Source of the DNA: Quercus robur | Taxonomy: Eukaryota; Streptophyta; Magnoliopsida; Fagales; Fagaceae | Reading direction: 5' to 3' | DNA length: 64,000 nucleotides | Assembly: GCF_932294415.1 (NCBI RefSeq) | Contig: NC_065536.1 | Location: forward strand, 52,092,354-52,156,353 | Part shown: positions 13,227-50,186 of the stretch, one piece after another | How positions within the stretch are numbered: the stretch's first letter is position 1 | How the letters are laid out: the number at the start of each line of letters is the position of its first letter | Notes under the pieces: model-generated | Told to the model about the DNA's origin: nothing | The model's input: the letters and a program-made list of their open reading frames with translations, nothing else | The model's database searches: none | Program-made: the position numbers and the translations under genes

Positions 13227-13669
13227 TTAAAAAACCTGTCTAATATATTATATTTTTTTTCTGGTGCCCAATGTGTTTTTGGGCTTTATATTCTGCTTCC
13301 ATGACAATGCCTTTTGCCTAGTGTTTTTTGGGCTTTACATTCTGCTTTTAAAGACAATGCTTTTTCGCTCGGTGTTTTTTAGGCTTTACAATCTGCTTTT
13401 AAAGACAATGCTTTTCGCCCAGTGTTATTTTGGACTTTAATCACTGATCATGGGAAAACTTATATATTTATACTACGGTTTGTTCTCATGCCTTCAATGG
13501 ATTCTCTTCTGTTCATGGTCGTCATGTTGACATTCCTAGTGATTTGCGTGTGACTTGCGTTTTTGCGAGGATTCTCTTATGCTTTTCATTAATGACTTGT
13601 ATCCATCCGTGATGAATCTCGTCACTTGATCTCCTTTAGATGACTTGCATCCTTTTAGGGAATTTTCAC

Positions 13670-14110
13670 TTTGCCTTCGTCAGTGATTTATATTCGTCTA
13701 AGGGACTTTATGACTTTGTTTTTTTTTTTTTTTTTTTTTTTAGGTGATATAAATCCATTTAAGGAATTTTATCACTTTGGCTTCGTCAGTGATTTACATC
13801 CGTTTAATGTATTTTATCACTTAGCCATTTTTGGTGATTTACATCCATTTAAGGAATTTTATCACTTTGGCTTCGTCAGTGATTCACATCCATTTAAAGA
13901 ATTTTATCATTTAGCCATTTTAGGTGATTTACATCCATTTAAGGAATTTTATCACTTTTGGCTTCGTCAGTGATTTACATCCATTTAAAGAATTTTATCA
14001 CTTAGCCATTTTAGGTGATGTACATCCATTTAAGGAATTTTATCATTTTTGGCTTTGTCAGTGATTTACATCCATTTAAGGAATTTTATCACTTGGCCAT
14101 TTTATTTTTT
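13670..14110 (-). repeat. Tandem-repeat array in the 3' region of the older Tat element
   Basis: Around ten copies of a short core, ACATCCATTTAAGGAATTTT and close variants, are followed alternately by ATCACTTTGGCTTCGTCAGTG and ATCACTTAGCCATTTTAGGTG. This gives a higher-order unit of about 100 bases. A long T run sits at about 13720-13740. The same core, inverted, forms the array at 31500-31790 in the younger element. Arrays at this position in Tat elements are known sources of satellite DNA. Confidence 0.85.
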
Positions 14111-14356
14111 TTATTTTTTTTGTACACAATCTGTTGGAACATTTGCTAAATAGTGCTTTTATTGCTTTATTTCAAATGAAGATATCACTTTCGTGAATAC
14201 AATGGTACTTTACATTTATTGATGATATTTTTTCAGATGCTCAATGTTCCATGGCCGTGGTAACTTCTTCCCGTCCATTGTCTCTAGGTGGTAGTTGCCT
14301 TGTCTTGAGTAATGGATGACCTTGTAGGGACCTTCCCAGGTTGGTCCAAGCTTCCC

Positions 14357-17300
14357 TTAGGTTGGATCCTTTGTTGCTAGCGTGACTCTGCATAGAACGA
14401 GGTCTCCTATGTTAAGTCTTCTGAGCTTCACCCTCTTGTTATAATACTCAGCCATCTTCTGTTGATATGTCGTCATCTTCTGGGATGCTTCATCTCTTAC
14501 TTCATCCAGGCAATCCAAGTTGACTCTCAATAGATCGCCATTACTGTCTTCATTAAAGGCCTCTCTTCTGATATTGGTGACTACTACTTTGATTGGAATT
14601 AATGCATCGGTGCCATAGGTAAGCCTGAAGGGCGTCTCTCCTGTTGGGGTCCTCGCTTTAGTTCTATATGCCCACAAGACATTAGGAAATTCTTCTGGCC
14701 ATGCTCCCTTTCCTTCTCCACCCCAACTTTGATGATCTTCAGTAGCGTTTGGTTCATCACTTCCATCTGTCCATTGGCTCGCGGATGCCCCAGGCATGAA
14801 AACTGGTTCTTGATCCCCAATCTCAAGCAAAAGTTCCTGAAGTCTTGGCTGTCGAACTGTTGTCCGTTGTCTGATATTATCGTCTGTGGTATCCCAAATC
14901 TACAAACTATATTTTTCCACACAAAGTTCTAGATCTTTGCCTCTGTGATAGTTGGTAGTGCTTCTGCTTCAACCCATTTCGTAAAGTAGTCAATTGCAAC
15001 CAATAGGAATTTTACTTGTCTCTTACCTTGGGGTAGGGGGCCTACAATATCAATCCCCCACTGGGTGAATGGCCATGGGAAGGTTATGGGCATCAACTTC
15101 TCTCCTAGGATGCACTAAACATTCCTAAACCTCTGACACTTGTCACATCGTTCAATTCAACAAACTCCGTTGCGCCTCTCTGCATAGTAGGCTAGAAATA
15201 ACCTGTTATGACGATCTTACTTACCAGGGATCTTAGGCTTGTGTGTTCTCTATATACTCCTTTGTGAACCTCCTCTAGGATGTTCTTAGTTTCACTTTCT
15301 TCGATACACTTTAAGTAGGGCATAGAGAACCCCCTTTTGTAAAGGATGTCGTTCAGGATGGTGAACCTGGCTACTCTCTTCCTGACTTTCCTAGCCTCCT
15401 CGACGTTTGCCGGAAGTCATTCGTCTCGGAGGAAAGACAAGATTGGGGTCATCCAACTGTTTTCATTTTGAACTGTGAAAGTGTGAAATTCTTCAATGCT
15501 GGGATGCTTATGGACATCCATCTTTAAGTCTGTGATCGTCAACCCCACTTCTAATGACACCTGCTTCGCTATCTCATCTGCTTCTATATTCTGACTCCTG
15601 GGAACTTGTATGAACTCTACCCGATCAAATTCTTGGGCCAAATGTTTCGTCAGCCTAAGGTATTTCTGTATCATGTCCTTCTTTGCCTCTTCTTCTTTTA
15701 TCTGCCCTACAACTAGCTTAGAATCACTCTAGAGGAGCAAGTTTTTGGCGCCTAATGCCTTTCCGACCCTTAATCCCGTCAGTATTGCCTCATATTCCGC
15801 CTCATTGTTGGTGGCGGGGAACTAAAGTTGAACTCCATATTTGAGCGTATCTCCTTCAGGAGTAATGATGATAACCCTTACTCCACCTCTTTTTCGGGCT
15901 GACGACCCATTAGCGTGGATCGTCCATCTCTCCGCCTCATCCTGTGCTTCTTCTTCATCAGGGGTTGTGAACTCGACGATAAAGTTGGCTAATTCTTATG
16001 CCTTAATCGCTTTTTTAAGGCGGTACTCGATGTGAAACTAGCTAAATTTGATTACCCATAACACCATTCTTCATGCAGCTTCAAGCTTGTACATCGACTT
16101 CCTTATAGGCTGATCTGTCATTACCAGAATAGGATTTGCCTGGAAGTAAGGGCACATCTTACGAAAGGCTATGATCAGAGCAAATGCAATCTTTTCGATC
16201 CACAGGTATTTTGCCTCAACTCCTTGGAAGGCTTGACTGACGTAGTAGACCGGGAGTTGTGTTCTATTTTCTTCTCGAACCAAGGCCGCACTCACGGCTA
16301 TGGCTGATAATGCTAAATACAAATACAGGTTCTCTCCCTCCTTAGACTGGCTCAGGAGTGGTGGGTTGCTCAAGTAGTGTTTTAGGTCCTGGGAAGGCCT
16401 TCTCATACTCCTCCGTCCAGGTGAAAGCTAGCTTCAAAGTCTTGAAGAAGGGTAGGTACTTGTCCGTTGCTTTAGAGACGAACTTCTTGAGGGCTGCAAT
16501 CCTTCCTGTTAATTTCTGAACATCCTTCACCGTTCTTGGCGATGTCATCTCCAATATAGCTCATACCTTTTTCGGGTTAGCTTCTATTTCCCTCTAGAAG
16601 ACCATGAATCCTAGGAACTTCCCAGAAGCAACCTCGAAGGTGCATTTGCTGGGATTCAGCTTCATCTGGTATTGTCTGAGGGTAGTGAAGGTCTCCTCAA
16701 GATCATCCAAGTGTGCGGATTCCTCCTTGCTCTTGACGAGCATGTCATCCATGTATACCTCTATATTTCTTTTGATCTACTTACTGAACATTTTGTTGAC
16801 TAACCTCTAGTAGGTCGCTCCTGCATTTTTCAGTCTGAAGGGAATTACCTTGTAGCAGTAGAGCACCTGGCTGGTGATGAAGGTAGTCTTCTCCTGACAT
16901 CTTTATCTGGTTGTATCCCAAGAATGTGTCCATGAATGTGAGGAGCTTGTGTCCTGCTGTGGAATCCATAAGTTAATATATTCTTGGCAAGGGGGGAAAC
17001 TGTCTTTCGGGCAAGCCTTATTTAGGTCTGTGAAGTCTACACACATCCTCCATTTCCCATTTTCTTTCTTTATAAGGACGACATTGGCTAGCTAGTCTGG
17101 ATAGTAGACCTCACGAATAAAATCTGCTTCTAGCAATTTGTTTACCTCGTCCATGATTGCTTTATTTCGTTCAGGGGCAAAGACTCGTCGTCTTTGCTGG
17201 ACAGGCTTCCTCTCCAGGTCTACATTCAAGTGGTGTTGAATGACCTCAGTCGCTATGCCTGGCATATCCTTGTGACTCCATGCAAAAATGTCCAAATTGC

Positions 17301-18200
17301 CTTTAAGGAATTAGACTAGCCTTCTCTTTAGCTAATCGCTCAAAGTTGTCCCTATCCTTATGGTCTTCGTTGGTTCTCCGTCTACTAGTTTCACAGTTTC
17401 CAGGGCTTCCACTTTCTCTTCCTCCTTCTCCTCAATCATCCATGTATGGTTCTCCTTTGCAGCTAACACCACTTAGTAGCATTCCCTAGCCAGCACTTGA
17501 TCTCCCTTTACTTCACTCATGCCATTCTCTAATGGGAATTTTACCATCAGGCAATAGGTGGATGTTGCTACCTTTCAACGGTTGAGTGTGGGCCTTCCAA
17601 TTATCACGTTGTACGAGGGGGGGGGGGGGTAATCTACTACCAGGAAGTCAAGCTGATGAGTTACCTATTAGGGGTAAGTCCCTACCATAACCGTCAATGC
17701 CACTATACTTTTGGGGTACACCCGATCTCTACTGAAGCTGACAAGGGGGGACTCAAAAGGCTGTAACATTTCAAGGTCTACCTTCAGCTGCTGAAAAGCG
17801 GAGAGGTAGATAATGTCTACAGAGCTGCCAATGTCTATAAGGACTCTCCTGGTGTTAAATCCTTCTATCATGAGCATGATAACCAAGGGGTCGTCATGCG
17901 GCTGCTTCACACCTTTGGCATTTTCTTTTGAAAACAGGATGTCCTTATTCATCCTTCTTTGCTTAAGGGATGGTTTCTTGTGGACACTGTTTACCTGCCT
18001 CTGTTGTGACTTCTTAAGGGATTTAAAAGATCCACCTGTGGACGGTCCTCCTGTGATCATTTTTATTTCTCCTATCGTGCTTTGTGGATGACTGAACGTG
18101 TTGTCCTTGTCCCTGGGAACAACTTCGTGCTTCTCCTTGATATCACTTCTAGATCTGCTGGATTCCCCCTTCTTCACAAACTTCTGTAGCTTCCCCTTCC
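14357..18200 (-). pseudogene. pol region of the older Tat element
   Basis: Recognisable parts from right to left are: an aspartic protease block around 17870-17780 ([21 protein letters not shown]); reverse transcriptase around 17290-16600 ([19 protein letters not shown], a KLLTFMDTF stretch); the first RNase H around 16400-16070 (LPVYYVSQAFQGVEAKYLW); the second RNase H around 15800-15540 (QKYLRLTKHLAQEF, VEFIQVPRSQNIEADE); and integrase around 15180-14360 (FGIPQTIISDNGQQFDSQ, HPRANGQMEV, ARTPTGETPFRLTYGTDA). All are broken by many lesions. Confidence 0.88.
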
Positions 18201-18349
18201 AATGAGTTCTTCTATCTGCTCCTTCAGGTCTCTACAATCTTCAGTGTAATAGTCATGGTCTTTGTGGAAACGGCAGTATTTCTTCTTGTCACGTACATTA
18301 GGTGATGAATGCAATGGCCTTGGCCACTTAAGGTAATGTTCGTCCTTAA

Positions 18350-19380
18350 TCTACATTAAAATTTTGTCAATAGGCATAACTAAAGGGGTAAATTTTACCG
18401 TACGAGGGGTTTTATCGTCTCTCCACTTATTTCCGTTAGTACCCTAACGGTCTCCCCTTTCTCTTTTACGTCCCCTCTGGTCTTCTCCCTTTCCTTCTCT
18501 TTCTCTGGGATTCTCCTCGACCCCTATTGCTATTAGGGCGTCTTCTGCATTCATGTACTTCAAAGCTTTCAACAACATTTCCACCATTTTCTGAGGAGGG
18601 CTTTTCACGAGTGCGACCACTAATTCTCTAGACTTCAATCTAGCTTTGAAGGTCATTAGCTGCACTTTGTCTTCTGCTTCATTTATCTTCAGGATTTCTC
18701 TGGTGAAACGCTTCACATATGATCTTAGGGTCTCCTTCTCCCCTTGTCTGATGGTGAGCGAATGGTCTGCTAGCCTTTTTGGGCGTTGTCCACCAATGAA
18801 ATGGTGTACAAAAGAATTGCCCAATTGCTCGAAGCTGTCAATGGACAATGTTGGTAGCTGACTAAACCACACTCGCATTGCTCCCTTAAGAGTGGTGGGG
18901 AAAGAATGGCACAGTATCTCGTCAGGGGGCTATTGAAGTCCCAGAGTTGTCTTGAAGGTGGTGATGTGATCCAACAGATCTTTCAAATGATCGAATGATT
19001 CGAGCTGTGGGAGACGAAACTTTGAAGGCATAGGGCATTCTAGGACCCTCGTTGTGAAAGGCAAGTCCGTCCTCCTGACCATTCCATCTAAGTTTCGATC
19101 TGCTTTATCCCTTATCACACTTTTTAGCTTGTCCATCTCTCTTCTCATTTCCCTGAGGAGGTCTGAATTCGCTTCCTCAAGGGTATTTGGTAGTTAGTGG
19201 TCGTTCCTTCTATGGCTGTCTTTATCGTCATTCCAATTAGTCCTGGAGCGATTATCTTCCTATTGAATCTACAATCTCATCTCTTGGTTCTGTCTTGTGA
19301 GCTCCTCTATGCTGGCTGTGAGTGTTTCGATCTGTAGGGCTAGTGCTACAGAATCTTAAGGCATACTAGACTCCATTTGG
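18350..19380 (-). pseudogene. gag region of the older Tat element
   Basis: This is retrotransposon gag sequence: [56 protein letters not shown] and a charged Arg/Glu-rich tail. It matches the gag of the younger element block by block. It is broken. Confidence 0.88.
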
Positions 19381-19435
19381 ACTTTAGAGCTTGAACGGAA
19401 CTACACTTCCAGATTTGAGTACAAAATTGTTGTCC

Positions 19436-19453
19436 CCACAGACGGTGCCAAAC
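19436..19453 (-). other. Primer binding site of the older Tat element
   Basis: On the minus strand the bases just inside the 5' LTR read TTTGGCACCGTCTGTGGGG. The younger element has TTTGGCGCCGTCTGTGGGG at the same place, the usual form for this lineage. It primes minus-strand synthesis from a host tRNA; I did not assign which one. Confidence 0.75.
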
Positions 19454-19955
19454 TGATGATGTCAAGATCGTTAGTTGATTAGGTTTGTCTAGATAGGTCA
19501 GCACGAGCTCATCTTCATACCTGCAAGGTTAAGAATAGAGTCCTCTTTAAGTGGTCATCGGTATGATGCCAGCCATGGAGTCTCCAATGATAAAATCAGT
19601 GAATGAAATTGGCAGAAAGGGCTTGCGAGAACTAGAATGAATAGTAAAAGTATCAGTACTTTTGTGTGTATGTACCTTGTTTAGTTCTAAAATGCATATA
19701 CATATATATATATACCTCTTTTTCTTCTAGCCATTGTACCCTATTTATGGTGGCATAAGTGCCACTTTTGTAACGCCTTTGGGCTCATTCAATATGGGCA
19801 TTGATGGGTCTCCCAACGGTCTTCTGACTGATTCGTAACCATTCAAGATATTGAATGCTCTCTTTATGGCTTCTCTTCCATCGTCCATGCTAGGTCTGGG
19901 TGGACGATGGTACCTGATAGGTTCGTTTGGACAATGAAATTTATTGGGCCTATCA
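19454..19955 (-). repeat. 5' LTR of the older Tat element
   Basis: The plus-strand copy starts TGATGATGTC and ends GGGCCTATCA, giving TG...CA ends on the element's own strand. The bases outside it (TCCAC) do not match the bases outside the other LTR (GATTT), so no target duplication is preserved. Confidence 0.9.
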
Positions 19956-20260: not shown

Positions 20261-21083
20261 ACAACCATCAGCATCAATGGCGTTTAAGCAATTAATTAGC
20301 ATCAAATTTGAAGCCTAAAGTCTAGAGAAAGATAAGAGAATAGACAAATTCTAGTTGCACTAATACAACCATCAGCATCAATATTGGAGTTTAAGCAATT
20401 AATTAGCATCAAATTTGAAGCCTAAAGTCAAGAGAAAGATAAGAGAATGGACAAAATCTTCAAACCTGGGCCAAGGATGATAAGGCAACAAGTAATGTAC
20501 CAGAGATTTTTTTTTTTTTTTTTTTTCTTCGCGAGGGAAAACAAAAAATGTGATATATTTTTAAGATGAGTTTAGCTTACCTCCAATACTTTTTTAATTG
20601 AATGTCTCATTTTGTTTTAAATACACAATAGCAAGTGGTACAGTAGTAGGTTTTAATCTTCATATTTTAATTAGCTAGTGGATGATGTGGCAGTTTTTCA
20701 TTTAAAATAAAGAAGATACCAGTTACAACCATCAGCATCAATATTGGAGTTTAAGCAATTAATTAGCATCAAATTTGAAGCCTAAAGTCAAGAGAAAGAT
20801 AAGAGAATGGACAAAATCTTCAAACCTAGGCCAAGGATGATAAGGCAACAAGTAATGTACCAGAGATTTTTTTTTTTTTTTTTTTCTTCGCGAGGGAAAA
20901 CGAAAAATGTGATATATTTTTAAGATGGGTTTAGCTTACCTCAAATACTTTTTTAATTGAATGTCTCATTTTGTTTTAAATACACAATAGCAAGTGATAC
21001 AGTAGTAGGTTTTAATCTTCATATTTTAATTAGCTAGTGGATGATGTGGCAGCTTTTCATTTAAAATAAATAAGATCCCAGTT
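20261..21083. repeat. 360-bp tandem duplication plus a partial third copy
   Basis: Copy 1 (20365-20724) and copy 2 (20725 to about 21083) both begin ACAACCATCAGCATCAATAT and stay nearly identical, including a long T run followed by CTTCGCGAGGGAAAAC. A 104-base partial copy (20261-20364) begins ACAACCATCAGCATCAATGG. No gene is seen in it. High identity suggests a recent duplication. Confidence 0.92.
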
Positions 21084-22331
21084 AAAAGAATTACTTAAAA
21101 TAAGTCAAACTCTTTTAAGATTGACATGCTCAAAGTTTTTTTTTTTTTTTTTTTCCTATATAATAAACACTCATCACTACAGTAACATTCTCTTTAATAA
21201 AGGAGAAAGAAGTGAAGAATTTTTCCCCCTTCTTCATTTTTGGTGCGCTATTCATGCATATATCCTATTTTCCAAAAATACTATTTTTTTTTTCTATTAA
21301 CCAATCCAAAAACACTAGTTAAATTATTATACTATTTTTTTCCTTGTAATTGCTAATTGTATTGCTCAAATCAATCTAATAAATACTCATATATATGATT
21401 ACACACGTTCTGAGTCCTCTGACGTTCATGTAATCCATTTCAAACAAAATTAAACGGATAATATAAGTAATCTAGTCATCATCTAGATTTACGTTCATAC
21501 GCATCTAAGCTAACAAGCACTTAAAAAATGGTAAAAATTTTACAAGACGATCCTGCCCTTAATTAAATGAAGCCAACTATCAAACTAATGTTACCATCGC
21601 ACACCTTTAGCGTGTATGATGATCACTCCACAAGTACTAAATTCTTGTGAGGTGAGAGGAGAATGGTCGAAATTCAAGTTTTTAAGAGAGAATTTCATAC
21701 AAATATACACAAATTAGACTAACTAGAATTTCTATATTGTATAAAAAATAAAACTATTAAACTGAAGTTCACCCAAATTACAACGCAAACCAAAAGGCAA
21801 TTTGGCTACCACAATTAACAAAGTACAAAATTCCTTGCATGCAAAATATAGTAAAAGCCACAAAAAGCAAAACACGTTTAATTTAATAAGATAATCTAGA
21901 ATTCATAAAGGTTTCTTGAATTCACAAAGAAAGATATATAGTCTGGGAATCCACCAAAAACTTGAGAGAAATTTCTTATAAATTCTTAAACTAAAATCTA
22001 AAATGCCTTAAAGGCTACAATACATTTTAAATAAATAAATAAACCAAAGGCAACTAAAGAAAGCCCTTAAAATCCTAATTTGCACTAATTACAAAATTAA
22101 ATAGCAAAATAGTAAATTTTACTAAAAAATGCAAAACTAACTTTAAGATACATTCTTTCAATAAAATATTACTAAAAACAGGAAAACCGATGATTTCAAG
22201 ACCTAAATAAAAAGGAAATTGCTCGAAAAGTGACATCATTCATCACCAAAGGTCATGAATTTATTTCCAAAGTTGTTCTCTTCAGGTCACCAAATTTCAT
22301 GCAATTCCATTGCTGGAAGAAACAAAATTCT
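21084..22331. other. AT-rich 3' flank of the BAHD gene
   Basis: I see no gene. The stretch has T and A runs and should include the 3' untranslated region of the BAHD gene, whose stop is at 22332-22334. No clear poly(A) signal could be singled out. Confidence 0.5.
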
Positions 22332-23600
22332 TTAACGTAAGTAGGCAAAGAGCTCCTCATCTGTTTCTAATTTAGCCATGTCTTCCTCTTTCAAAAAAAT
22401 CCATGCCTCTATTCCATCCCCTGACTTGGTGTCAAAGAAGGAAACAAGATTCTTGAACGTCATGTTAGCCGTGGTTACCCACGCAGGCTTCCCCCACCCA
22501 AAATCAGCTTCATATAGAGGAAACCTGCACAAGCTAGTGATGGCAAACGAAAACACCTCTCCTTTCTTGACTCTTGCGGCGCGCTCTTTAATATAATTCA
22601 AGTGCGCATCATCCTGTTGGAGATTTTTCACAAACTCCGCGTCCACTTTCTTTATAGCATCTCTCATTGGTTTGATAATGCCATAAAATCCATCATCAGT
22701 GTCCCTGGATGGTACCGAAAAAGCAATTCGACTAAAATTTCCGAAGTAATAGTCGGGAATAGGTGGATCCATCCTCGTTCTTAGGTTCACAGCATGAACC
22801 ATAGTGTAAATCTTATCTGGGTCTTCTTTTGGCTGAGTTGCAGCCATGAACCGGCTCCATATGAAAGCCGATAAGGCCTCAACACGACTAGGGCGTGGGT
22901 ATTCAATGTTCTTGTCTTCAGTACTGTATTTTTCTCTAATGGAAGCTATAGCAGACGCCTCGAAGACAAACCTCTTTGTCACGATTTTTTCCTTTACCAT
23001 CCCAGTAGTTGGATCAAAGCCAGATAAAGCTTTTGGTGGGAAAAGCTTGGCGGAATGGAATTGAGGGCTCACTATGTTGCTATCACCACGAGCAATAGCA
23101 GTCCAACTTTTGAGAAACATAACGACTGATAAGGCATCTGAAACCTTATGAGACATTACCACACCTATCACAAGGCCACCACAGTCAAAGAAGGTTACTT
23201 GGACTGCTATAGGTAATTCATTGGGATGGTCCAATTCATAAGGGAGGAATTTGTTGAGCTCAGCAGGGTTTGGATTCTCAAGAAATTCAGAGAGCATGCA
23301 CTTAGCCTCAGCCTCCATGTAGTGAACACCCTCATCGTTGCAATCGATATAAAGATTGCCTTTAACCCGTCCTGCTAGAGGGTAGAATAGTGTTAAAGCT
23401 TCGGATAATGATTTCTTAATCTTGTCACATTGCTGTACCTTGCTAAAATTGACACCTTCAACTTTTGGGTAGAAGAGAACTAGAGGCATGTAAACTGGAG
23501 GTTGAATTTGATCGAGGAAGGAGAGTTGTTGGTGGCGGAGATTTTCAGGGGTTGGAGATGAGGGTTTGATGGTCTCCTTGGAGATAACTTCAACCTCCAT
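22332..23600 (-). CDS. BAHD acyltransferase (vinorine synthase-like)
   Basis: An intact single-exon frame of 422 residues, close to the usual 420-460 of the family. BAHD enzymes move an acyl group from acyl-CoA to an alcohol or amine in specialised metabolism, in the cytosol. The active-site HxxxD motif is HKVSD (residues 151-155), at the usual place, with catalytic His151. The structural motif DFGWG is at 366-370, near the C-terminus as expected. Other family landmarks are YPLAGR (73-78) and YFGNF (285-289). The lack of introns and overall sequence suggest the clade that holds vinorine synthase and related alkaloid acetyltransferases, but the acceptor cannot be told from sequence. The start ATG at 23600 has a TATA box about 95 bases upstream. 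The neighbours are transposon remnants, so there is no gene cluster in view. Confidence 0.93.
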   Translation of the reverse strand: MEVEVISKETIKPSSPTPENLRHQQLSFLDQIQPPVYMPLVLFYPKVEGVNFSKVQQCDKIKKSLSEALTLFYPLAGRVKGNLYIDCNDEGVHYMEAEAKCMLSEFLENPNPAELNKFLPYELDHPNELPIAVQVTFFDCGGLVIGVVMSHKVSDALSVVMFLKSWTAIARGDSNIVSPQFHSAKLFPPKALSGFDPTTGMVKEKIVTKRFVFEASAIASIREKYSTEDKNIEYPRPSRVEALSAFIWSRFMAATQPKEDPDKIYTMVHAVNLRTRMDPPIPDYYFGNFSRIAFSVPSRDTDDGFYGIIKPMRDAIKKVDAEFVKNLQQDDAHLNYIKERAARVKKGEVFSFAITSLCRFPLYEADFGWGKPAWVTTANMTFKNLVSFFDTKSGDGIEAWIFLKEEDMAKLETDEELFAYLR

Positions 23601-25467: not shown

Positions 25468-25472
25468 ATGGG

Positions 25473-25972
25473 TGATGATGCTCAGATCGTCAGTCAAGTA
25501 TGATCGTCCAGATGGAAGTCGTCCTCAACCAACCCAATCCTCAAGAACGAGTGAAGGGAAGAACGGATGTAGTTCGCCGGCGTGGTGCCTGCCAAAAAGT
25601 CTCCGATGCCAAAGTCAGAAAGATTGACAAAAGAGAACTGTGAAAATAATGTGCTAGAGTTTTTGCCTTACCTCCACCCCTTTTGGGGTTATGTATTTAT
25701 ATGCATGCACTCATAGGTGGTTTCTTCTAGCTGTTGGTGGAGTCTTGATGGAGACTTTATTCTTGCCTGGTAACGCCCCTGCGGGGTGTTAATGGTGAGC
25801 TGCCCCTCCCAACGGTCTGAAGGTTGATTAATGTTTTATAACGGTTCCTCGAGGGGTGGAGGTGGGTTTACTCGTCCTTGAGCGACGGCCATTTCTTCCA
25901 AGACGATCTTGGTTAGGCCATCCATCACTAGTCGTGAACGTATGGACGATGATGATTTGATCGAGCCTATCA
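25473..25972 (-). repeat. Full LTR in inverted orientation at the left end
   Basis: This 500-base copy begins TGATGATGCTCAGATCG and ends GATCGAGCCTATCA on the plus strand, the exact reverse complement layout of the 3' LTR at 35089-35588. It abuts the target duplication ATGGG on its left and the partial LTR on its right without spare bases. Confidence 0.93.
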
Positions 25973-26231
25973 GCTAGAAGAAACCACCTGTGAGTGCATG
26001 CATATAAATACATAACCCCAAAAGGGGTGGAGGTAAGGCAAAAACTCTAGCACATTATTTTCACAGTTCTCTTTTGTCAATCTTTCTAACTTTGGCATCG
26101 AAGACTTTTTGGCAGGCACCACGCCAGCGAAATACATCCGTTCTTCCCTTCACTCGTTCTTGAGGATTGGGTTGGTTGAGGATGACTTCCATCTGGACAA
26201 TCATACTTGACTAACGATCTGAGCATCATCA
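25973..26231 (+). repeat. Partial 5' LTR in normal orientation
   Basis: It starts at GCTAGAAGAAACC, which is position 242 of the 500-base LTR, and runs to the normal LTR end GAGCATCATCA. It is followed at once by the primer site. The first 241 bases of the LTR are missing in this copy. The upstream inverted LTR supplies that stretch only in the opposite orientation. Confidence 0.93.
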
Positions 26232-27450
26232 GTTTGGCGCCGTCTGTGGGGAACGATTCAACACGTGATCTGTCCCCGGTCCGGATGGAATCTAGTACAA
26301 ACCCAGATCCCGCTGCATTGGCCCTACAAATTCAGTCACTATCAGCCACTGTGGAAGAACTCACCAGACAGAACCAAGAGATGAAGCAACAGTTGCTACA
26401 GGAAAGTAATCGTGCAGACAGGGGCGACAACGAAGACAGCAACAGAAGGCGAACCAGCACTCTGAAAGAGGCAAGTTCGGATCTCTTAAGAGAGATGAGG
26501 AAAGAGATGGACGAACTGAGGAACACCATCAAAGGAAAAACGGACCAAAGCTTGGAGAGGATCGTCCGGAAGACGGGCTCACCTTTTACCATGGCCGTCC
26601 AGGAGTGCCCAGTACCCTCCAAGTTCCCTCTACCCCAGCTAGAACCCTTCGACGGGCCGAAAGATCCCTTGGATCACCTGAATACCTTCAAGACGACCCT
26701 AGGCCTTCAACAGCCACCTAATGAGATTTTGTGTCGCTCCTTCCCTACAACTCTCAAAGGAGCAGCTAGGGAGTGGTTCAACAAGTTGCCAACATCGTCC
26801 ATTGATAACTTCGAACAGTTAAGTAGTTCCTTTGTTCGTCATTTCATAGGCGGGCAGCGTCCAAAAAAGACTGTCGACCATCTGCTTACCATCAGACAAA
26901 GAGAGAAGGAACCATTGAGGTCTTATGTGACACGTTTCACCCAAGGAATGCTAGAAGTAGACGAGGCGGATGACAAGGTACATCTCACGACCTTCAAAGT
27001 AGGGTTGAAGTCCAGAGATTTTGTGGCATCTTTAGCAAAGAACCCCCCAAAGACAATGGCCGAAGCATTGTTGAAAGCACAGAAGTACATGAACACGGAA
27101 GAAGCCCTAACAGCCATTGATGGAGCAGAAAAGAAGAAGGAAAATGAGGACGATCGACGAGGGCAAAAGAGGGATCGGGCTGATCGACGGAATGACGATG
27201 GAAATAGGCGGAAGGAGGACAAGAACCCTCGTCCAGCGAAATTCACACCGCTGATGATGCCCGTTGACCAGATTCTAACGGAGATAAGGGACGAACCGTC
27301 TCTCAAGTGGCCAAGACCACTCCATTCAGCGCCTGGTTTGCGCGACAAGAGGAAATACTGCCGCTTCCACAAAGATCATGGGCATTACACGAAGGATTGC
27401 AGGGACCTGAAAGAGCAGATTGAAGAGCTCATCCGTAATGGGAAACTACA
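26207..27450 (+). pseudogene. gag region of the young Tat element
   Basis: A long open stretch. The gag core holds [47 protein letters not shown] and [19 protein letters not shown]. Next come a basic Arg/Asp/Glu-rich stretch (about 27120-27230) and a zinc-knuckle-like [16 protein letters not shown] (about 27350-27405). The protein would package element RNA. The frame runs on into the protease region, where the [10 protein letters not shown] and VIIGRPML blocks mark the far end. As part of a fossil element it is not expected to serve the host. Confidence 0.88.
26232..26251 (+). other. Primer binding site of the young Tat element
   Basis: GTTTGGCGCCGTCTGTGGGG directly follows the LTR end. It is the same site as in the older element (one base apart) and the usual form for this lineage. 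Confidence 0.8.
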
Positions 27451-27719
27451 ACAGTATATAAAAATGGGAGATTCCAGCAGGTACGGACAGAAAAGCCAGC
27501 AAGTTAGGAGAGACGAAGACCGCCCCCAACCTCGTCCACAAATCGCACTAGGGGAGATAAAAACTATCGTCGGAGGACCAACCACTGGGGGATCATTCAA
27601 ATCCCTCAGGAAATCATACCAAAGGCAGGTAAACAGTGTCCACAGTATACCCCCGTTGAAGCAAAGACGAACCAATGGAGACTTGTATTTCTCCGAAGAA
27701 GATGCCGGAAGTGTAAAGC

Positions 27720-30700
27720 AACCTCATGATGACCCACTCGTCATTATGATCATGATCGAAGGGTTCAATACGCGAAGAGTCCTGGTCGACAATGGAAGCT
27801 CAGCCGATATAATCTATCTTCCTGCCTTCCAGCAACTAAAACTAGACCCAAAAAGGCTCCGTCCTTTTGAGTCTCCCCTCGTCAGTTTCAGCTGAAACAA
27901 GGTATACCCCAGGAAAATAGTGACGTTGACAGTGACAGTCGGATCATACCCCCTCCAAGTAATCAACCGGCACAATTTCCTGTTAGTGGACTCACCCTTG
28001 TCCTACAATGTGATCATAGGACGACCAATGCTCAATCGCTGGAAGGCTGCTATTTCAACCTACTGCTTAAAGGTGAAGTTCCCAACAGAACAGGGGATCA
28101 GAGAAATTAAAGGAGACCAAGTGTTGGCAAGAGAATGCTACCAGGCCGTCCTGGCCTCAAAAGAGAACCATACGTGGACGATCGAGGAGAAATCGCCAGA
28201 GATTGTGGAAAATCTTGAAACGGTAGAGCTGGCTGAAGGGAGTCCACCAAAGACGACCCAAATAGGGACGAACCTGAGTCCCAGGACGAAGGAAGAGATC
28301 GTCAGCTTCTTGAAAAGTAACCTCGATATATTCGCATGGAGTCACGAAGATATGTCGGGAATCCCAGCAAGCCTCATCCAGCATCACCTAAATGTTGACC
28401 AAGGAAAGAAGCCAATCCAGTAGAAAATGAGAGTCTTTGGCCCCGAGTGAAACAAGGCAGTGATGGACGAAGTAAATAAGTTACTTGCATCCAAATTTAT
28501 TCGGGAAGTCCACTACCCCAAGTGGTTGGCCAACATAGTCATGGTCAAAAAAGCAAATGGGAAGTGGAGAATGTGTGTCGACTTTACAGACCTAAATCAA
28601 GCCTGCCCAAAAGACAGTTTCCCACTACCCAGAATCGACCAGCTAGTGAACTCCACAACAGGGCACAAACTTCTCACATTTATGGACGCGTTCTCCGGAT
28701 ACAACCAGATACAAATGGCTGAAGAAGACCAAGAAAAGACTGCTTTTATCACCAACCAGGGACTATACTGTTACCAGGTCATGCCTTTTGGACTCAAGAA
28801 TGCAGGTGCCACCTATCAAAGGTTGGTGAACCAGATGTTCGAGAAGCAAATCGAGAGAAACGTGGAGGTTTACGTTGACGATATGCTCGTCAAGAGCAAA
28901 GAGGAAGAAGATCATCTGGACGACCTCAGGGAGACGTTCAATATGCTCAGGCATACAGCATGAAGCTGAACCCGTCCAAGTGTGCTTTTGGGGTTTCCTC
29001 GAGAAGGTCAAAGCCATCCTTGAAATGTCCTCACCCAGGACGGTTAAAGAAGTGCAATCCCTCACAGGAAGAATAGCAGCCCTCAACAGGTTCATCTCGA
29101 AGGCTACAGACAAATGCCTTCCATTCTTTAAGACTTTGAAGAAAGTGTTTTCCTGGACGGAGGAATGCGAAACGGCGTTCCAAGAGTTGAAGCGCTATCT
29201 TAGCAACCCCCCGCTCTTAAGCCCGTCGAAAGAGGGCGAAGACTTATTCCTGTACTTAGTTGTGTCTATTACGGCCGTCAGCGCGGCGTTGATCAAAGAA
29301 GAAGACAGGTTGCAACTTCCTGTGTATTACGTCAGCCAGGCTTTCCAGGGTGCCGAGGCGCGGTATCCTCGCATAGAGAAGATCACCTTCGCCCTGATTA
29401 TGGCTTCGAGAAAACTTCGTCCATACTTTCAAGCCAATCCCATCATTGTAATGACGAACCAACCCATCAAAAAAGCAATGAACAAGCCCAAAGCGGCAAG
29501 ACGAATGGTATAGTGGGCAATCGAGCTCAGCCAATTTGACATAAAATACCGTCCACGAACAGTAATAAAAGTACAGGCATTGGCTGATTTCATAGCAGAA
29601 TTCATCACCCCCAGGAGCGTAGAGAGTCTCTGGATGGTAAACACTGATGGGTCGTCCACTTAGAAAGGAGGCGGAGCAGGCATCGTCATCACTTCCCCTG
29701 AAAAATATGTTCTCAAGTATGGGGTCTAGCTCAAATTCCCTGTAACCAATAACGAGGCAAAATACGAGGCCTTATTGACGGGATTGAGAATAGCTCGGGC
29801 ACTCGGAGGTGAGAATATTGTGCTCAAGAGCGACTCCCAGCTTTTCATAGGGCAACTGAGAAGGGAATATGAAGCAAAGGAGGCAAGGATGCAGAAGTAT
29901 CTCAAACTGACGAACCAGCTGGTAAGCGCATTTAATTACGTAGAGTTCATCCAGATCCCCAGGGATCAGAACGCTGAAGCTGACGAGGTTGCACGAAGTG
30001 CCTCAACGGACAACCAAAATAAAAGGTTCAATTGGAAGATGGAAGAACAAAACTCTCCTAGCATCCAGGGACTTCAAACTCTCTCGGTGCACACCGACCC
30101 TGGATGGACAAGCTCGATTTTGTCATTCCTTCGAGAAGGACGACTACCGTCAGATCCAGAAGAAGCTAAAAAGGTCCAGAAACAAGCAGCCAGATTTACG
30201 ATACTTAATGACGAACTCTACAAAAGGGGTTACTCCCAACCGTATTTGAGATGTGTAGAAGGGGAGGAAGCCAAATACATCCTGGAGGAAGTGCACGGAG
30301 GAATCTACGGAGACCACATGGGGGCAAAGTCCCTCGTCAGGAAGATCATGAGAACAGGCTACTTTTGGCCAACAATGCAGCAAGACGCAGCTGATTTCGT
30401 GAAGAAGTGTGATAGTTGCCAAAGGTATAGGAATGTTCAAAGAATCCCTGGGAAAAGATGACCACAATCTCCTCGCCCTGGCCATTCGCACAGTGGGGGG
30501 TCGACATCATGGGTCCCTTACCTCAAGGGAAGAGACAAGTAAAGTTCTTGCTCGTCGCTATCAACTACTTCACAAAATGGGTTGAGGCAGAAGCTTTGGC
30601 GACAATCACCGAAGCAAAGGTACAAAATTTTGTATGGAAAAATATTGTTTGCAGGTTCGGGATACCAAGGACGATCATATCAGATAATAGTCGTCAATTT

Positions 30701-31348
30701 GACAGCCAAAAGTTCAGATCATTTTGCTTAGGCTTGGGCATCAAAAACAGGTACTCATCGCCAGGTCATCCTCAGGCCAATGGACAGACGGAAGTAACCA
30801 ACCGGACCCTGCTCAAGATTATCAAGTCCCGGTTAGTGGGGGCAAAGGGAACGTGGCCTGAAGAACTACCAAGTGTCTTGTGGGAATATAGGATGACAGC
30901 ACGGACACCAACAGGAGAAACACCATTCAGTCTGACATACGGCACAGAAGCGGTCATCCTGGTTGAAGTAGGGCTCACTAGCCTTAAGAGAGAATTCTTT
31001 GACAAACAAACCAATGACGACCAATTGAAACAGAACCTAGACAACCTGGACGAAATTAGAGACCAGGCATCCCAAAGAATGACCAAATACCAACAGAAGA
31101 TAGCTGAATATTATAATCGAAGAGTGAAGCTGAGAAGATTCAACGTTGGAGACCTCGTCCTTAGAAAAGTCACCCCTACAACAAAAGATCCAGTACAAGG
31201 AAAACTAGGACCGTCCTGGGAAGGGCCCTACAGAGTCGTCCATTGTTCACGTCAGGGAAGTTACCATCTAGAAGACTCAGAAGGAAAGAGACTACCTCGT
31301 TCATGGAATGTCGAACATCTAAAGAGGTATTACGAAAAGGAACCATAG
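27720..31348 (+). pseudogene. pol region of the young Tat element
   Basis: Parts in order are: aspartic protease ([13 protein letters not shown], about 27780); reverse transcriptase (WRMCVDFTDLNQACPKD, FMDAFSGYNQI, the catalytic VYVDDML near 28875); first RNase H (LPVYYVSQAFQGAEARYPR, about 29310); second RNase H (TNNEAKYEALLTGL, about 29750, and VEFIQIPRDQNAEADE, about 29945); integrase (a zinc-binding HGGIYGDHMG...CDSCQRY block about 30290-30425, the core WGVDIMGPLPQGKRQVKFLL, DSQKFRSFCLGLGIKN, HPQANGQTEVTNRTLL, and a C-terminal KLGPSWEGPYRVV block about 31205). Integrase last and two RNase H domains define Ty3/Tat. A few breaks are present. Confidence 0.92.
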
Positions 31349-31499: not shown

Positions 31500-31790
31500 G
31501 ATCATCCTAAAACAAAGAAAGACGATAAGATCCCCTAAAGTGGCGAACGATCGTCCTAAACAAAGAAAGACGATAAGATTCCTTAAATGGATGTACATCG
31601 TCTCAAAGAGAAAGACGATAAGATTCCTTAAATGGATGTACATCGTCCCAAAAAGAAAAATGACGATAAGATTCCTTAAATGGATGTACATCGTCCAACA
31701 AAGAAAGACGACTAGATTCCTTAAATGGATGCGCATCGTCCAACAAAGCAAGACGATTAAATTCCTCGAATAGACGCACCTCGTCCATGG
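31500..31790 (+). repeat. Tandem-repeat array in the 3' region of the young Tat element
   Basis: About six units of roughly 45 bases follow the pattern AAAGACGATAAGATTCCTTAA then ATGGATGTACATCGTCC. The core CTTAAATGGATGTA is the inverse of the core of the array in the older element (13670-14110). The array lies between the end of integrase and the opposite-strand coding region in both elements. Confidence 0.88.
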
Positions 31791-32205: not shown

Positions 32206-34292
32206 TCAAGCTGGAGGGGCAACATCGTCGTCCTTTTTCGCCTGGGAAGGTTCCGCACCGATAGATGCCGCTGTCTGAGCTGCTTCATCCTCCTCGATCT
32301 CCTTGTCAACGGCCTCAAAATCTAAGCCTTCAAGGTCCATACCAGGTCCATGCTTGATCAAATATCTCCGAAGCAACTCAAACCCCTTAAAGTACCACTG
32401 GAACAGGATGGTGTTATATTCGTCCGTGGTCTGGAAAGCAGTGACGGCCTTGGCCACAGCGACTTTCATCTTCTGGGCAGCTACTGCCAGGAGTTCGTCC
32501 TTCTGCTTCACTGACTGCTTTTCAGCGTCCAGCTGCTCCGTCAAGACTTGAACTTGCTCCTTGGAAGTGTTGAGGGAGTCCATGGCTGCGATCAAGTCCT
32601 TCCGCAAGCCCGAAGCTTCGGCCTCCAATGCTTCCACCTTCGAGTTGGCCACGACGGCCTTCTCCTTATTTGCCAGATACTGCGTGGTAATGTGCATGGT
32701 CTCCCCCAACACCTGAGGACAAAAAGTTCAATCAAAATCAACAAAAATGGTCAAGCAGTTAAAGACGAAGAGAAAAACAAAAATGTGGTGGATTACCTGC
32801 ACGAGCTTGTGAATGTGACGGCTCACCATCTCGTGGGAAGGAACGCTCGTAATTTCCTCCATCTCCCCGGGGGTAAGGAGCTCGTTGGCACGGTCCATGG
32901 CCGTCTCGACGTCCGACCAAACACTGGCACCAACTTTCTCCTTCCCCTTGCTCGCCACTTTCTACTTCTTGAAAGGACAGGCCACCTCCTCAACCGAAAT
33001 GCCAAGAGAGGCAGCCAAACCCTCATCCAGGTCAAGGGCAGGTGTGGACGAGCCCCTCTCCACCACCTCCTTTTCTTTCTCCCTCTCCTTATCTGTAATT
33101 CTCAGCCTCCTCTGACCTATGTTGGAAAGAGGCTCATTCTTCTTGTCCTTAATTTTCTTGTACATCTCTTTGCTAAACTTGGACGTCATTTCTGCACAAA
33201 AGAGAGAAAGAATTTAAGGATGAAGAAAAAGAGAATAAAAGGTTAAGGACGAATAAAAAGAAAGTAAGAAGTTAAGAACGAAGAAAAAGAAGACAAATCT
33301 ATTGGAAAGTACAACTTACGTTTTTTCTCTTCTCGATCGAGGGTACTAAGGACGTAGAGGGAAGGCTCCGGCCCCAAACAATGACGAGCTAAAGTGCGCG
33401 GATCGATCAAGTCACCAAAATCTTCGATCGTCCTTGCGTACCTGATTGACGCCTGAACCCGCTCTTCGAATTTGCTCTCGAGCTCTAGACGATCTTTCAC
33501 TGCAAAGACAACAGCAAAGGGAAAAAAAAAAAAAAAAAAAAAAAAAAGAGAGAGAATGAGAGAAAAGGGGTAAGGGGGCATCTCATAAGGAGCAAACGCA
33601 CCAATCAAAGGGGTCTCCCACCGGCCCAACAGCCTAGGAACGTTCCCCCATAAGTCATCAGGCAATTTTTCCCAACCGTCACCCGATACAAAGAAGTATC
33701 TAAACTTCCAGTAGCAAAAGGATGACGAGAGATCAACTACCAGACGCGACCTCCTATTCCAGGGTACAAACTCATAATATCCAAATTCCTTGGACTCTTT
33801 CAGACGGTACAGATGGACGAACTCATTGACCGTGATCATGTCTCCGTCGGCGATGGTCGTCCAAATCACCATACAGCTAACAACTATTCTCCAAGAATTG
33901 GGCATAAGTTGCCTCGGTTCAAGGTTAAAATGATGAAGAAACTCCATGATGAACGGATGGACAGGGAACCTGAGGCCACACGAAAAAGCAGCCTCATAAA
34001 AGCAAACTTCCCCGTGGGCAAAGGCGCAAGCCTTTTCACCCTTCCTGGGAAGACGAGCTCTAGTCCCCTCAGGAAACTGGAATCTATCTTTAAATTTGCT
34101 AAAAACCTCTATTTTCAAGGAACAATTTTCCTTAAGGGCATGGAAAGGACGGACGACGGCCGGAGCGGGAGAATGGGAGGACGAGGGAGCACGAGAAGGC
34201 ACGGTGGTCGCTGTATCAACCCCGGCCCCTTCCTCACCTACGCTAGAGGACGAGCCCTTCTCTAAGTCACCTGACCCTTCCTCAAAACCCAT
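32206..34292 (-). pseudogene. Opposite-strand accessory coding region of the young Tat element
   Basis: Coding-like blocks read against the element. The first (about 34292-33600) opens with an ATG and an acidic/Ser-rich stretch, then FKDRFQFPE, VCFYEAAF, LMPNSWRIV, FVHLYRLKESKEFGYYEF. The next (about 33500-33320) holds YARTIEDFGDL and LARHCLGPEPS. The third (about 33190-32800) holds NEPLSNIGQRR and SRHIHKLVQ. The last (about 32712-32206) is a coiled coil with KVEALEAEASGLRKD, QWYFKGFELLRRYL and an acidic end. T/A-rich gaps with splice-like edges separate them. All blocks match the older element's opposite-strand region in order. Such extra frames are known for Tat elements. What it does is unknown. 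Confidence 0.8.
33522..33547. repeat. A run and GA-rich stretch in the accessory region
   Basis: About 26 A residues are followed by GAGAGAGAATGAGAG, in a gap between two coding-like blocks. On the accessory strand it is a polypyrimidine stretch, as found near splice acceptors. Confidence 0.7.
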
Positions 34293-35088
34293 GTTTTCCC
34301 CTCTTAGGATCCCTCAAACGGACCGAAACTAGACATGAGATTTTAACAGTAAAGGGTATAAGAGACCCAACGCCAATCCTAACCCACTACCCCTATAGAC
34401 AAATTCCTCAACTTGTGGGTATGAACCGTTAGGCGAAAGCGCACCCAATGGGTCGCCGGAAAGTTCCACTAAGGCTCCTAAACAGGCAAAGAGAAAGGCT
34501 ACAAAGGGAGAGTTACGCCTAACTTTGAAGTTATCCACCATTAAAGAGGAACAACACCACTCAGTAAGAAGAAGGGATAGTGCAGAGAGGAGAAAGAACT
34601 TAAAAGACACAAATACAAGCAAAATTCAGAAAGGAAAGAAAGCATAAATGGGGGGCGTACCTGGAAATTAGGGAGAAAACTGAGAAGACTAGGAGCAAAA
34701 CACGCAAGTAAGGGAGAAACCAACCGCGCAGAAGATGGGGAAATGAGAAAAGGAAAGGCCAAAGAAATCAAAAGGTTCTGCCTTGGAAAGTGCGAGAAAA
34801 CTAAAAAGGTTTTCACCAAAAACGAGATCCCCCAGCCAATGAGAATCAACCACGTGGCCGCGAAGTGAGCCACAGCCGCCATTAAACAATCAATGCAGAG
34901 CAGAACCCCAAACGCCATAACTGAAAAAAATAAAAATAAAAATAAAAAAATAAAAAAAAAATAGAGAGAGAGAGAGAGAGAATATATAAAATAAATATGT
35001 ATATATATTTACTCAAATGAACCTGTAAAACCCTTTCATATTCCTACGACAGTCCGAGATATGGACGATCAAGGAATAGGGGGGCAGC

Positions 35089-35588
35089 TGATAGGCTCGA
35101 TCAAATCATCATCGTCCATACGTTCACGACTAGTGACGGACGGCCTAACCAAGATCGTCATGGAAGAAATGGCCGTCGCTCAAGGACGAGTAAACCCACC
35201 TCCACCCCTCGAGAAACCGTTATAAAACATTAATCAACCTTCAGACCGTTGGGAGGGGCAGCTCACCATTAACACCCCGCAAGGGCGTTACCAGGCAAGA
35301 ATAAAGTCTCCATCAAGACTCCACCAACGGCTAGAAGAAACCACCTGTGAGTGCATGCATATAAATACATAACCCCAAAAGGGGTGGAGGTAAGGCAAAA
35401 ACTCTAGCACATTATTTTCACAGTTCTCTTTTGTCAATCTTTCTGACTTTGGCATCGGAGACTTTTTGGCAGGCACCACGCCGGCGAACTACATCCGTTC
35501 TTCCCTTCACTCGTTCTTGAGGATTGGGTTGGTTGAGGACGACTTCCATCTGGACGATCATACTTGACTGACGATCTGAGCATCATCA
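35089..35588 (+). repeat. 3' LTR of the young Tat element
   Basis: 500 bases from TGATAGGCTCGATCAAAT to GAGCATCATCA, preceded by a purine tract (CAAGGAATAGGGGGGCAGC) and followed by the target duplication ATGGG. A TATA-like ATATAAATA lies in the middle (about 35360). Confidence 0.95.
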
Positions 35589-35593
35589 ATGGG

Positions 35594-36042
35594 GACAAGG
35601 CTTTGGGACGAGGAAAGCCCAATTTAAAAAAACACAAATAATTTAGTTCTAACTAACTCAATTTGTAAAATTTCAATGAATAAAAAACTTGGGTTCGAAC
35701 TCCATATATATTTAGGATTCTAAAAATAAAATAATAAGAAAGAGCCCAAATAAAATATAAGCAAAGAGGGACAAATAGAAAAGAACAAAGAGATAGAAGG
35801 AACAAAGAAACCGGTTTGCATAGCCCTTCTTACTTAGGTCATCCCTGATGAGGCTCAAAATACAAATAGGGGCCTCAAAGACAAAATTGGCAACATTCTC
35901 TACCAACAATTTAGCCCGCCTAGCTAGATAATGGGCGATTCCATTCTATTCTCCTTTGATCCAACAGAACTTAAAATAGAGAGCTCGATCATATGAGGAC
36001 AACAACTTAATTCATGTATCAAGGACTAGATGTTGTTAGCAT
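35594..36042. other. Intergenic stretch, no gene seen
   Basis: AT-rich flank of the Tat insertion with no convincing frame. Before the insertion it was joined to the sequence left of 25468 through the single target site ATGGG. Confidence 0.5.
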
Positions 36043-37044: not shown

Positions 37045-38686
37045 TTGGTTATTAGGCACTTAAGTCCGACCGGCCCATAGGGAAGCCTTCACTTTCATGT
37101 TCCACGGCCTAATTCTACCAATGAACCCGCTAATGACCTATGCTAATTATGCAAATAATCAAAAATAAACACACAAGCACAAACACAACAAAATCAAATT
37201 ATCTCAACATTAATTTTCATAATTCATGTTCTTCATCTCATGCATCATGCCATCACACATCATGTTATTTTCACATTCATCTTCACAGAATTCATCACAG
37301 AATGTTAACATCGGTTTATCATATCATCTCATCATACCCATAATCGAATCCTATGCACTTTCCTAATTCAACATCTTAATCATGTTACTAATCAATTAAA
37401 ATACACTAATTATGTTTCCAATCAACCAAGGCACCCTTATAATGTTTTTGGACAAGCTTGTGTACACGACTCAAGCTATGTACACGGCTCCTCAAGCTAT
37501 ATGCATGCAAGGTGCGCTGAAATTCAAAACTAAAGAAATTTACCATAATTTAAGCATGTTTCTAACCTATTTTATAAAGCAAATAAACTAAACTAAGCTA
37601 AATTAAATTACAAACTAATAAAAAAAAACATAAAAACGAAATAATAAAATTAGAACTAAAAAAATCAAGAAAATAAATTAAGGAAAAAGATAAATAAATA
37701 AAAACTTGCCTCGAATGCAAGAAGCCAAAGCTTAATTTTACCATTTCCCTCAGTCGATCTATCACACAAACCAAAAAGAGGTTTGTAAACCTTTAAAGTA
37801 AAGGCCAAAAACCAAGGGTGGTCTTAGCCAACAAAGAGAAGAGAACTTGATGGAATTTAGTGAAAAACTCCCTTTGGAGTTTCGAATGCATAGACTCTTT
37901 CTATGTGTCTCAACCCAATGGTTTAAATTCCTTTTTATAGGAGTATTTTGGAGTTGAAAATTCATTTCTGAGTAATATGCGATAAGTTTTTTAGAGCTAT
38001 TTTTTTTGTTGTGCAAAGTGCACCCAAATCAAGTGGCTCTATGTGTCTCAACCCAATGGTTTAAAATCCTTTTTATAGGAGTATTTTGGAGTTGAAAATT
38101 CATTTCTGAGTAATATGCGATAAGTTTTTTAGAGCTCTTTTTTTTGTTGTGCAAAGTGCACCCAAATCAAGTGGCACATGTTTAGGCATCAAACTTTCCT
38201 TCTAAAACTTATTTTAAGGTTTTTTTTTTTTTTTTGGGAGGGGGGGGGGGGGTTTCTGTTGCTGGCTACATATGCAACTACACAATTGTGACAACTCAAC
38301 TATGTCAACTTCAAACGATCATATCTTACTCATTTTAAATTTAAATTGGATCAAATTTGTGACAATTTTAAAGTAATAGATGTCTACTTTCAAATGGAAC
38401 AAATTTCACTCAAAGTTTTCTTATTGTTGAAGAGATATTGAAATAATAGTGAGCAAGATTCAACTCCTAGCAGTGGATTTAGCATGGTTTCTAAACAATT
38501 TTGTCATTCTCTTGCATCTTGCTTGAATAGGTTCTTGTGAGAATTGAGACCTTGAGTGTCAATATTGGAGACAGCGTCTCAAGTCATAAAGGGTACAAAA
38601 TTATGTGACTATAATAACACTAGCTAAAATGAGCGATTAAATCATAGTGTTTTAATCATGTCTATCATGCCAAATATTGTCTAGTG
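37045..38686. other. Intergenic stretch with a 138-bp tandem duplication
   Basis: No gene is seen. Two nearly identical 138-base copies (37901-38038 and 38039-38176) begin CTATGTGTCTCAACCCAATG. Each includes TTTTTATAGGAGTATTTTGG, a TATA-like word, so this may be remnant promoter or LTR material. A G run lies at about 38239-38251. Confidence 0.6.
37901..38176. repeat. 138-bp tandem duplication
   Basis: Two head-to-tail copies with only a few differences (an extra A in GGTTTAAAATCC and C for A in GAGCTCTTT). Likely a recent replication-type duplication. Confidence 0.9.
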
Positions 38687-50127: not shown

Positions 50128-50186
50128 GATGGGTCTTTCTTTAAAGCTTCATTACATAAATTTTTTATACATTGCAAGGCAACAGT

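Follow-up and report, generated by a model that had tools for sequence, protein, structure and literature searches.

Structure and classification of the element

The window analyzed in this study, a 64,000-nucleotide stretch of the Quercus robur genome (contig NC_065536.1), harbors a long terminal repeat (LTR) retrotransposon enclosed by two copies of a 5-bp target-site duplication (TSD), ATGGG, at positions 25468 to 25472 on the left and 35589 to 35593 on the right (no strand assigned to either). A Pfam search of eight translated segments gave a match in six of them and revealed the domain order gag, reverse transcriptase, RNase H, RVT_3 plus integrase zinc-binding domain, and integrase core, all on the plus strand. 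The gag open reading frame (ORF) (Retrotrans_gag) spans positions 26207 to 27895, with a program-made start at a TTG inside the LTR that is not necessarily the true start. It is followed by a reverse transcriptase fragment (RVT_1; positions 28460 to 28963), RNase H (RT_RNaseH_2/RT_RNaseH; 29004 to 29513), a segment with an additional RNase H (RVT_3, aRH) and then the zinc-binding domain of the integrase (Integrase_H2C2; 29775 to 30461), and the integrase core (rve; 30458 to 31348). Furthermore, an extra ORF (eORF) in antisense orientation was identified at positions 33243 to 34292 of the minus strand, which matches Transposase_28 (putative gypsy-type transposon; PF04195; E value of 3.7e-11). 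The pol region is spread over more than one frame and contains in-frame stops, and the copy therefore looks defective today.

According to a passage of PMC6317226, the Ogre and Retand groups of the flowering-plant Tat elements have an additional RNase H that lies between RNase H and integrase. The RVT_3 domain of the Quercus element sits at exactly this place, and Transposase_28 is one of the eORF domains named in the same source; the passage on eORF domains does not show which lineage carries Transposase_28. Judged by these predicted domains, the element is a Tat (Ogre/Retand-type) Ty3/gypsy retrotransposon, and the position of the aRH domain supports the Tat membership already proposed in a first-pass annotation of this DNA. 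The 5-bp TSD and the TG...CA ends of the LTRs are present as well, both being general to plant LTR elements and not specific to Tat. A search with an exact 36-base LTR pattern gave no matches in viral and prokaryote contig collections, which is expected for a plant element and says nothing about the host.

The minus strand carries another, older Tat-like element at positions 10065 to 19955. Its LTRs (10065 to 10574, 510 nt; 19454 to 19955, 502 nt) are identical at 453 of 502 aligned bases. The two Tat elements are about 67% identical over a match of 5190 columns, and just downstream of pol both contain related arrays of 45-bp repeats with the same unit length (31511 to 31787 in the younger and 13738 to 14104 in the older element). 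The outer flanks of the older element, GTGGA and AAATC in element orientation, form no TSD, and it may therefore be recombinant.

A complete inverted LTR is fused to a partial LTR

At the right end of the young element, a polypurine tract named by eye, AAGGAATAGGGGGG, is followed by CAGC (together positions 35071 to 35088, plus strand) and directly abuts the U3 end of a complete 3' LTR of 500 nt (35089 to 35588, plus strand). At the left end, the TSD is followed by a complete 500-nt LTR in inverted orientation (25473 to 25972, minus strand), whose U5 end points toward the host flank and whose U3 end points toward the element. Fused to it is a partial LTR in normal orientation, which consists of LTR positions 242 to 500 (25973 to 26231, plus strand; 259 nt) and retains the TATAAATA motif (LTR position 272, window position 26003) together with all sequence downstream of it. 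A 3-nt GTT spacer and a sequence that, by eye, resembles a primer-binding site (PBS), TGGCGCCGTCTGTGGGGA, complete the left end (26232 to 26252, plus strand).

The LTR ends are exact: the inverted LTR and the 3' LTR are both 500 nt long, and both read TGATA...CATCA. A repeat finder returned one pair of inverted arms at 25473 to 25975 and 35086 to 35588 (503 nt, comprising the 500-nt LTR and 3 nt more; 99% complementary), a second pair at 25473 to 25733 and 25971 to 26231 (261 nt, 97%), and a direct copy at 25973 to 26250 and 35330 to 35607. Compared with the 3' LTR, the inverted LTR shows 7 differences in 500 positions (1.4%; 493/500 identical) and the partial LTR 7 in 259 (2.7%; 252/259 identical). 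The first-pass annotation had described a full inverted LTR fused to a partial one; according to the repeat finder and the exact ends, this description is correct to the base, and the counts match the divergences of about 1.4% and 2.7% that it gave for the two copies.

A single target-site duplication surrounds the whole unit

On both sides of the whole unit, ATGGG lies directly outside a U5 end, and in both cases this is the exact terminus of U5. Identity of all five bases would arise by chance with a probability of 1/1024. In contrast, no duplication borders the inverted LTR itself, since the bases on its right are GCTAG versus ATGGG on its left. With one shared TSD, exact U5 termini, and an inverted LTR that lacks a separate duplication, it is well supported that the palindrome existed before integration. 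The same observations bear out three further statements of the first-pass annotation, namely, that no separate duplication surrounds the inverted LTR, that the palindrome formed before integration, and that it was inserted as a unit with two U5 ends.

A later insertion of a solo LTR was considered and rejected, because a second TSD is missing and the left flank is joined to U5 precisely at its terminus. When the two flanks were joined and compared with the window, they matched only themselves and one 16-nt stretch (E value of 0.05), and six-frame translation revealed no long open frame across the joined flanks.

The U3 and U5 ends of the LTR are similar to each other. When the U5 end was shuffled except for its first 6 nt, 22 of 5000 shuffles reached the alignment score of the two ends. 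Because the ends are alike, a pair of U5 ends would be a plausible substrate for the integrase.

The fusion point contains a 3-nt overlap

The inverted LTR ends with ...CCTATCA, and the next bases, GCTAGAAG, correspond to the LTR from position 242 onward. The reverse complement across the left edge of the 3' LTR reads ...CCTATCAGCTGCCCCCC. Thus, GCT is common to both sources: the 3 nt at positions 25973 to 25975 (plus strand) equal LTR positions 242 to 244 and are also the reverse complement of the AGC directly upstream of the 3' LTR (35086 to 35088). This overlap, which on the latter side lies outside the LTR, is absent from the first-pass annotation. It becomes 5 nt (CAGCT) if the A at position 241 of the inverted copy is counted; 3 nt is the safer figure because the 3' LTR and both LTRs of the neighboring Tat element have a G at this position. 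For a random junction, an overlap of at least 3 nt has a P value of 0.05 and one of at least 5 nt a P value of 0.005.

The stretch before U3 and the GTT spacer on the U5 side both comprise 3 nt. The neighboring Tat element is built in the same way, with AAC directly before the TG of U3 and GTT directly after the CA of U5. From these equal lengths, found likewise in the neighbor, we infer that unintegrated cDNA of this family would carry 3-nt tails and that the fusion probably kept an unprocessed U3 tail. The 3-nt tails would also give a hint on the true ends of Tat cDNA.

The three LTR copies diverge unevenly

Changes are distributed unevenly among the three LTR copies, a point on which the first-pass annotation had not remarked. 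Within LTR positions 242 to 500, private changes number zero in the 3' LTR, one in the inverted copy, and seven in the partial copy, a split with a P value of about 0.008 under equal rates. When all positions are taken together, 7 of the 14 changes involve the partial copy, which contributes 259 of 1259 sites (P = 0.014). Copies synthesized in the same round would be expected to diverge to a similar extent, and the uneven decay therefore counts against a simple model with one cDNA.

All six transitions of the partial copy are located at CG or CHG sites (P = 0.0009; background, 36 of 116 sites), which points to methylation-linked decay of this copy. Five of the six are G-to-A changes, an excess that is not significant (two-sided P = 0.22).

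A second RNA is a possible source of the partial LTR. At two of the six transition sites (468 and 482), the partial copy is identical to both LTRs of the neighboring element. The neighbor-type state is found at 7 of 35 comparable CG/CHG sites, and at least two of six would be reached by chance with a P value of 0.34; given this comparison, a second-RNA origin was rejected as a firm conclusion. Used as an outgroup, the neighboring Tat element polarized few of the 14 differing sites: sites 49, 53, 126, 259, and 401 were judged to be unreliably aligned, and the two neighbor LTRs differ from each other at 452. Among the remaining eight sites, the inverted copy deviates from the others at 72, 194, and 241 and the partial copy at 357, 370, and 395, while at 468 and 482 the partial copy sides with the neighbor against the inverted copy and the 3' LTR.

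A template switch during reverse transcription as the proposed origin

With moderate confidence, we favor a single Tat insertion from an aberrant cDNA with two U5 ends, the minus strand of which switched templates at GCT. Reverse transcription would have proceeded normally up to and through second-strand transfer. With plus-strand strong-stop DNA as its template, the minus strand would then have passed R and reached U3 at LTR position 242, where its 3' end, ...AGC, would have re-paired with the GCT at the boundary of U3 and polypurine tract of a minus-strand LTR, which may have belonged to this cDNA or to one packaged with it. This GCT would probably have been the unprocessed 3-nt U3 tail, exposed by removal of the plus-strand primer. 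Copying of the LTR back to its U5 end would have added the complete inverted LTR and left a cDNA with U5 at both sides, and the integrase would have processed and inserted both ends, creating one 5-bp duplication. This order of events and the enzyme responsible are what we infer from the anatomy, the shared duplication, the LTR ends, and the overlap.

The stage of the error is suggested by the start of the partial LTR. A TATA motif lies 30 nt downstream of this start, and the 5' end of the RNA would be expected downstream of TATA, yet the partial LTR starts upstream, which argues for an error after second-strand transfer. Two further points count against the model. The switch itself does not make the strand complementary to the inverted LTR, which the template strand or repair would need to supply, and an overlap of 3 nt is weak on its own at P = 0.05. 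Taken together, the exact ends, the shared TSD, and the GCT overlap support fold-back or template switching as the cause; the first-pass annotation had named a fold-back during reverse transcription as one example.

Processes of this kind have been reported for other elements. Repeated strong-stop strands formed by strand displacement are described for Ty3 (PMC5371799, section 2.2), PMC1950507 documents template switches of plant LTR elements, and a passage of PMC2923131 gives evidence for switching between templates by Tnt1 in tobacco. Intermolecular second-strand transfer is argued for HIV-1 in a passage of PMC5651808, and a review cites, in one of its passages, studies that found second-strand transfer to be intramolecular only (PMC12789967). 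These latter reports would count against a second RNA if it were invoked here.

Alternative origins of the palindrome

It is possible, although we consider it unlikely, that the palindrome was assembled by joining of fragments before integration. In this case, a duplex consisting of the LTR alone, with its U3 end unprocessed (e.g., dead-end strong-stop DNA made double-stranded), would have undergone microhomology end joining with a cDNA that had a break at LTR position 242, followed by integration via the two U5 ends. Such a route predicts the same anatomy and the same 3-nt overlap as a template switch. Its ingredients have precedents, as dead-end plus-strand strong-stop DNA accumulates in Ty3 particles according to a passage of PMC5371799, and a section of PMC4751563 gives end joining of linear cDNA as one origin of 2-LTR circles. 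However, this route needs U3 to be broken, an LTR duplex to be free, and the two to be joined ahead of integration, which are more steps than one switch, and no break is demanded by the sequence.

A rearrangement after insertion appears improbable. Here, an inverted solo LTR or a neighboring element would have recombined into a normal 5' LTR, with loss of positions 1 to 241. In its favor, recombinant complexes outnumber template-switching complexes by 20 to 2 in about 7 Mb of Triticeae sequence (PMC1950507, Table 1). What disfavors a post-insertion origin at the present locus is that the original left flank with its ATGGG would have to be joined precisely to the U5 terminus of the inverted LTR. 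In addition, the inverted LTR lacks a TSD of its own, and agreement of the five outermost bases with the right-hand TSD would be a 1/1024 coincidence.

An artifact, either a fold-back read or a wrong join of two LTR copies during assembly, is quite improbable as well. Inverted LTRs are likely sites of assembly errors, and this counts in favor of such an artifact. Unlike in a fold-back read, however, the arms differ at 8 of 259 sites, and the palindrome is asymmetric, its arms being separated by 237 nt; a random join would be unlikely to yield both an exact U5 terminus and a matching 5-bp TSD. On this internal evidence, misassembly is unlikely.

Simple self-integration (autointegration), in which a processed U3 end would have attacked LTR position 242, either of the cDNA it belonged to or of a second one, is highly improbable and was rejected: the nominal fusion of ...TATCA to GCTAG does place the exact CA end of U3 at an internal site, as in strand transfer, but the products described in a section of PMC4751563 are inverted or truncated circles, the free U3 end would belong to a 5' LTR whose U5 side is tied to PBS/gag and here is chromosomal, identity of the three bases after CA with the non-LTR tail would be a 1/64 coincidence, and no single self-attack that fits was seen. 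The first-pass annotation had listed self-integration as an equal alternative, a rank that neither this topology nor the circular products in that section support.

Comparison with known systems

The nearest published case that we found is that of the template-switching complexes of Angela, Squiq, and Opie (Sabot and Schulman 2007, PMC1950507), in which one TSD surrounds three LTRs and the outer LTRs are near-identical. In the Quercus element, too, one TSD surrounds the whole unit, and the outermost LTRs are nearly identical (inverted LTR versus 3' LTR, 493/500). The published complexes are arranged head to tail, their two complete core sequences sharing the LTR that lies between them, and have ordinary outer ends, whereas the Quercus element has an inverted extra LTR, a single internal region, and U5 at both outer ends. 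It may work like these complexes while falling outside their definition. Tandem template-switch insertions are known, and the palindromic left end appears to be an accident of a familiar type.

The products of autointegration that a section of PMC4751563 describes for retroviruses and Ty1 likewise contain inverted LTRs and form before chromosomal integration, but they are (truncated) circles that arise from insertion of finished cDNA into itself. In contrast, the Quercus element is a linear insertion with a TSD, and the U5 end of its inverted LTR is chromosomal. HIV-1 proviruses with asymmetric LTRs (PMC9278108) likewise combine one intact and one shortened LTR per provirus, and the mechanism proposed in a passage of that study includes template switching between co-packaged templates. 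According to the same passage, the deletion lies in the 3' LTR in 24 of 26 proviruses, and it is a deletion and not an added inverted LTR.

Terminal repeats are also inverted in DIRS-1-type elements, as they are in the Quercus element. In the DIRS-1 type, inverted LTRs are the normal, heritable architecture of elements with a tyrosine recombinase, whereas the Quercus element is an apparent one-off with an rve-type integrase. Among the matches listed in a search of titles and abstract starts of open-licence papers, none was a published insertion with an inverted LTR and two U5 ends, and this absence is weak evidence. Older retrovirus work on rearranged unintegrated DNA exists.

Consequences of the palindromic left end

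If the template-switch origin is right, the element is a natural record of an error of reverse transcription at a defined stage, after second-strand transfer, and it indicates that the integrase of a plant Ty3/gypsy element can insert cDNA with two U5 ends. The palindrome itself should not pass to daughter copies, since the RNA would start in the partial LTR, downstream of the inverted LTR, and daughter copies would regain two normal LTRs. As genomic RNA would start inside the partial LTR, a search for the same junction in sister copies, as suggested in the first-pass annotation, might be negative even if that annotation is right. Annotation software that looks for a pair of direct LTRs could list such a copy as having a truncated 5' LTR and overlook the inverted one.

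Folded alone, positions 25473 to 26231 form a long LTR hairpin with a free energy of -570.6 kcal/mol, versus a mean of -223.4 kcal/mol for 20 shuffles. If transcribed by read-through, this hairpin could feed small-RNA silencing. We regard as doubtful a broader reading in which the AGC/GCT of the Tat-family U3 tail matches an internal U3 site, so that the minus strand would snap back recurrently and give rise to two-U5 cDNAs, silencing hairpin alleles, and a partial LTR from a second RNA. If this were true, each such insertion would be a dead-end palindromic allele, a read-through LTR hairpin could silence the family in trans, and the excess changes of the partial LTR would stem from a second, co-packaged RNA.

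Other features of the window

Two tandem duplications were observed outside the Tat elements. A 359-bp unit located about 400 bp from the older Tat element is present twice in tandem at positions 20364 to 21084 (97% matches), and a 138-bp unit is present twice in tandem at positions 37900 to 38175 (98% matches). Inspection of the translations by eye pointed to four further ORFs. We take the ORF at positions 22332 to 23600 to resemble an acyltransferase and that at 46755 to 48515 a LINE reverse transcriptase; the ORF at 50172 to 51485 presumably resembles a GRAS-type protein, and that at 59110 to 59733 presumably the C-terminal part of a P450.
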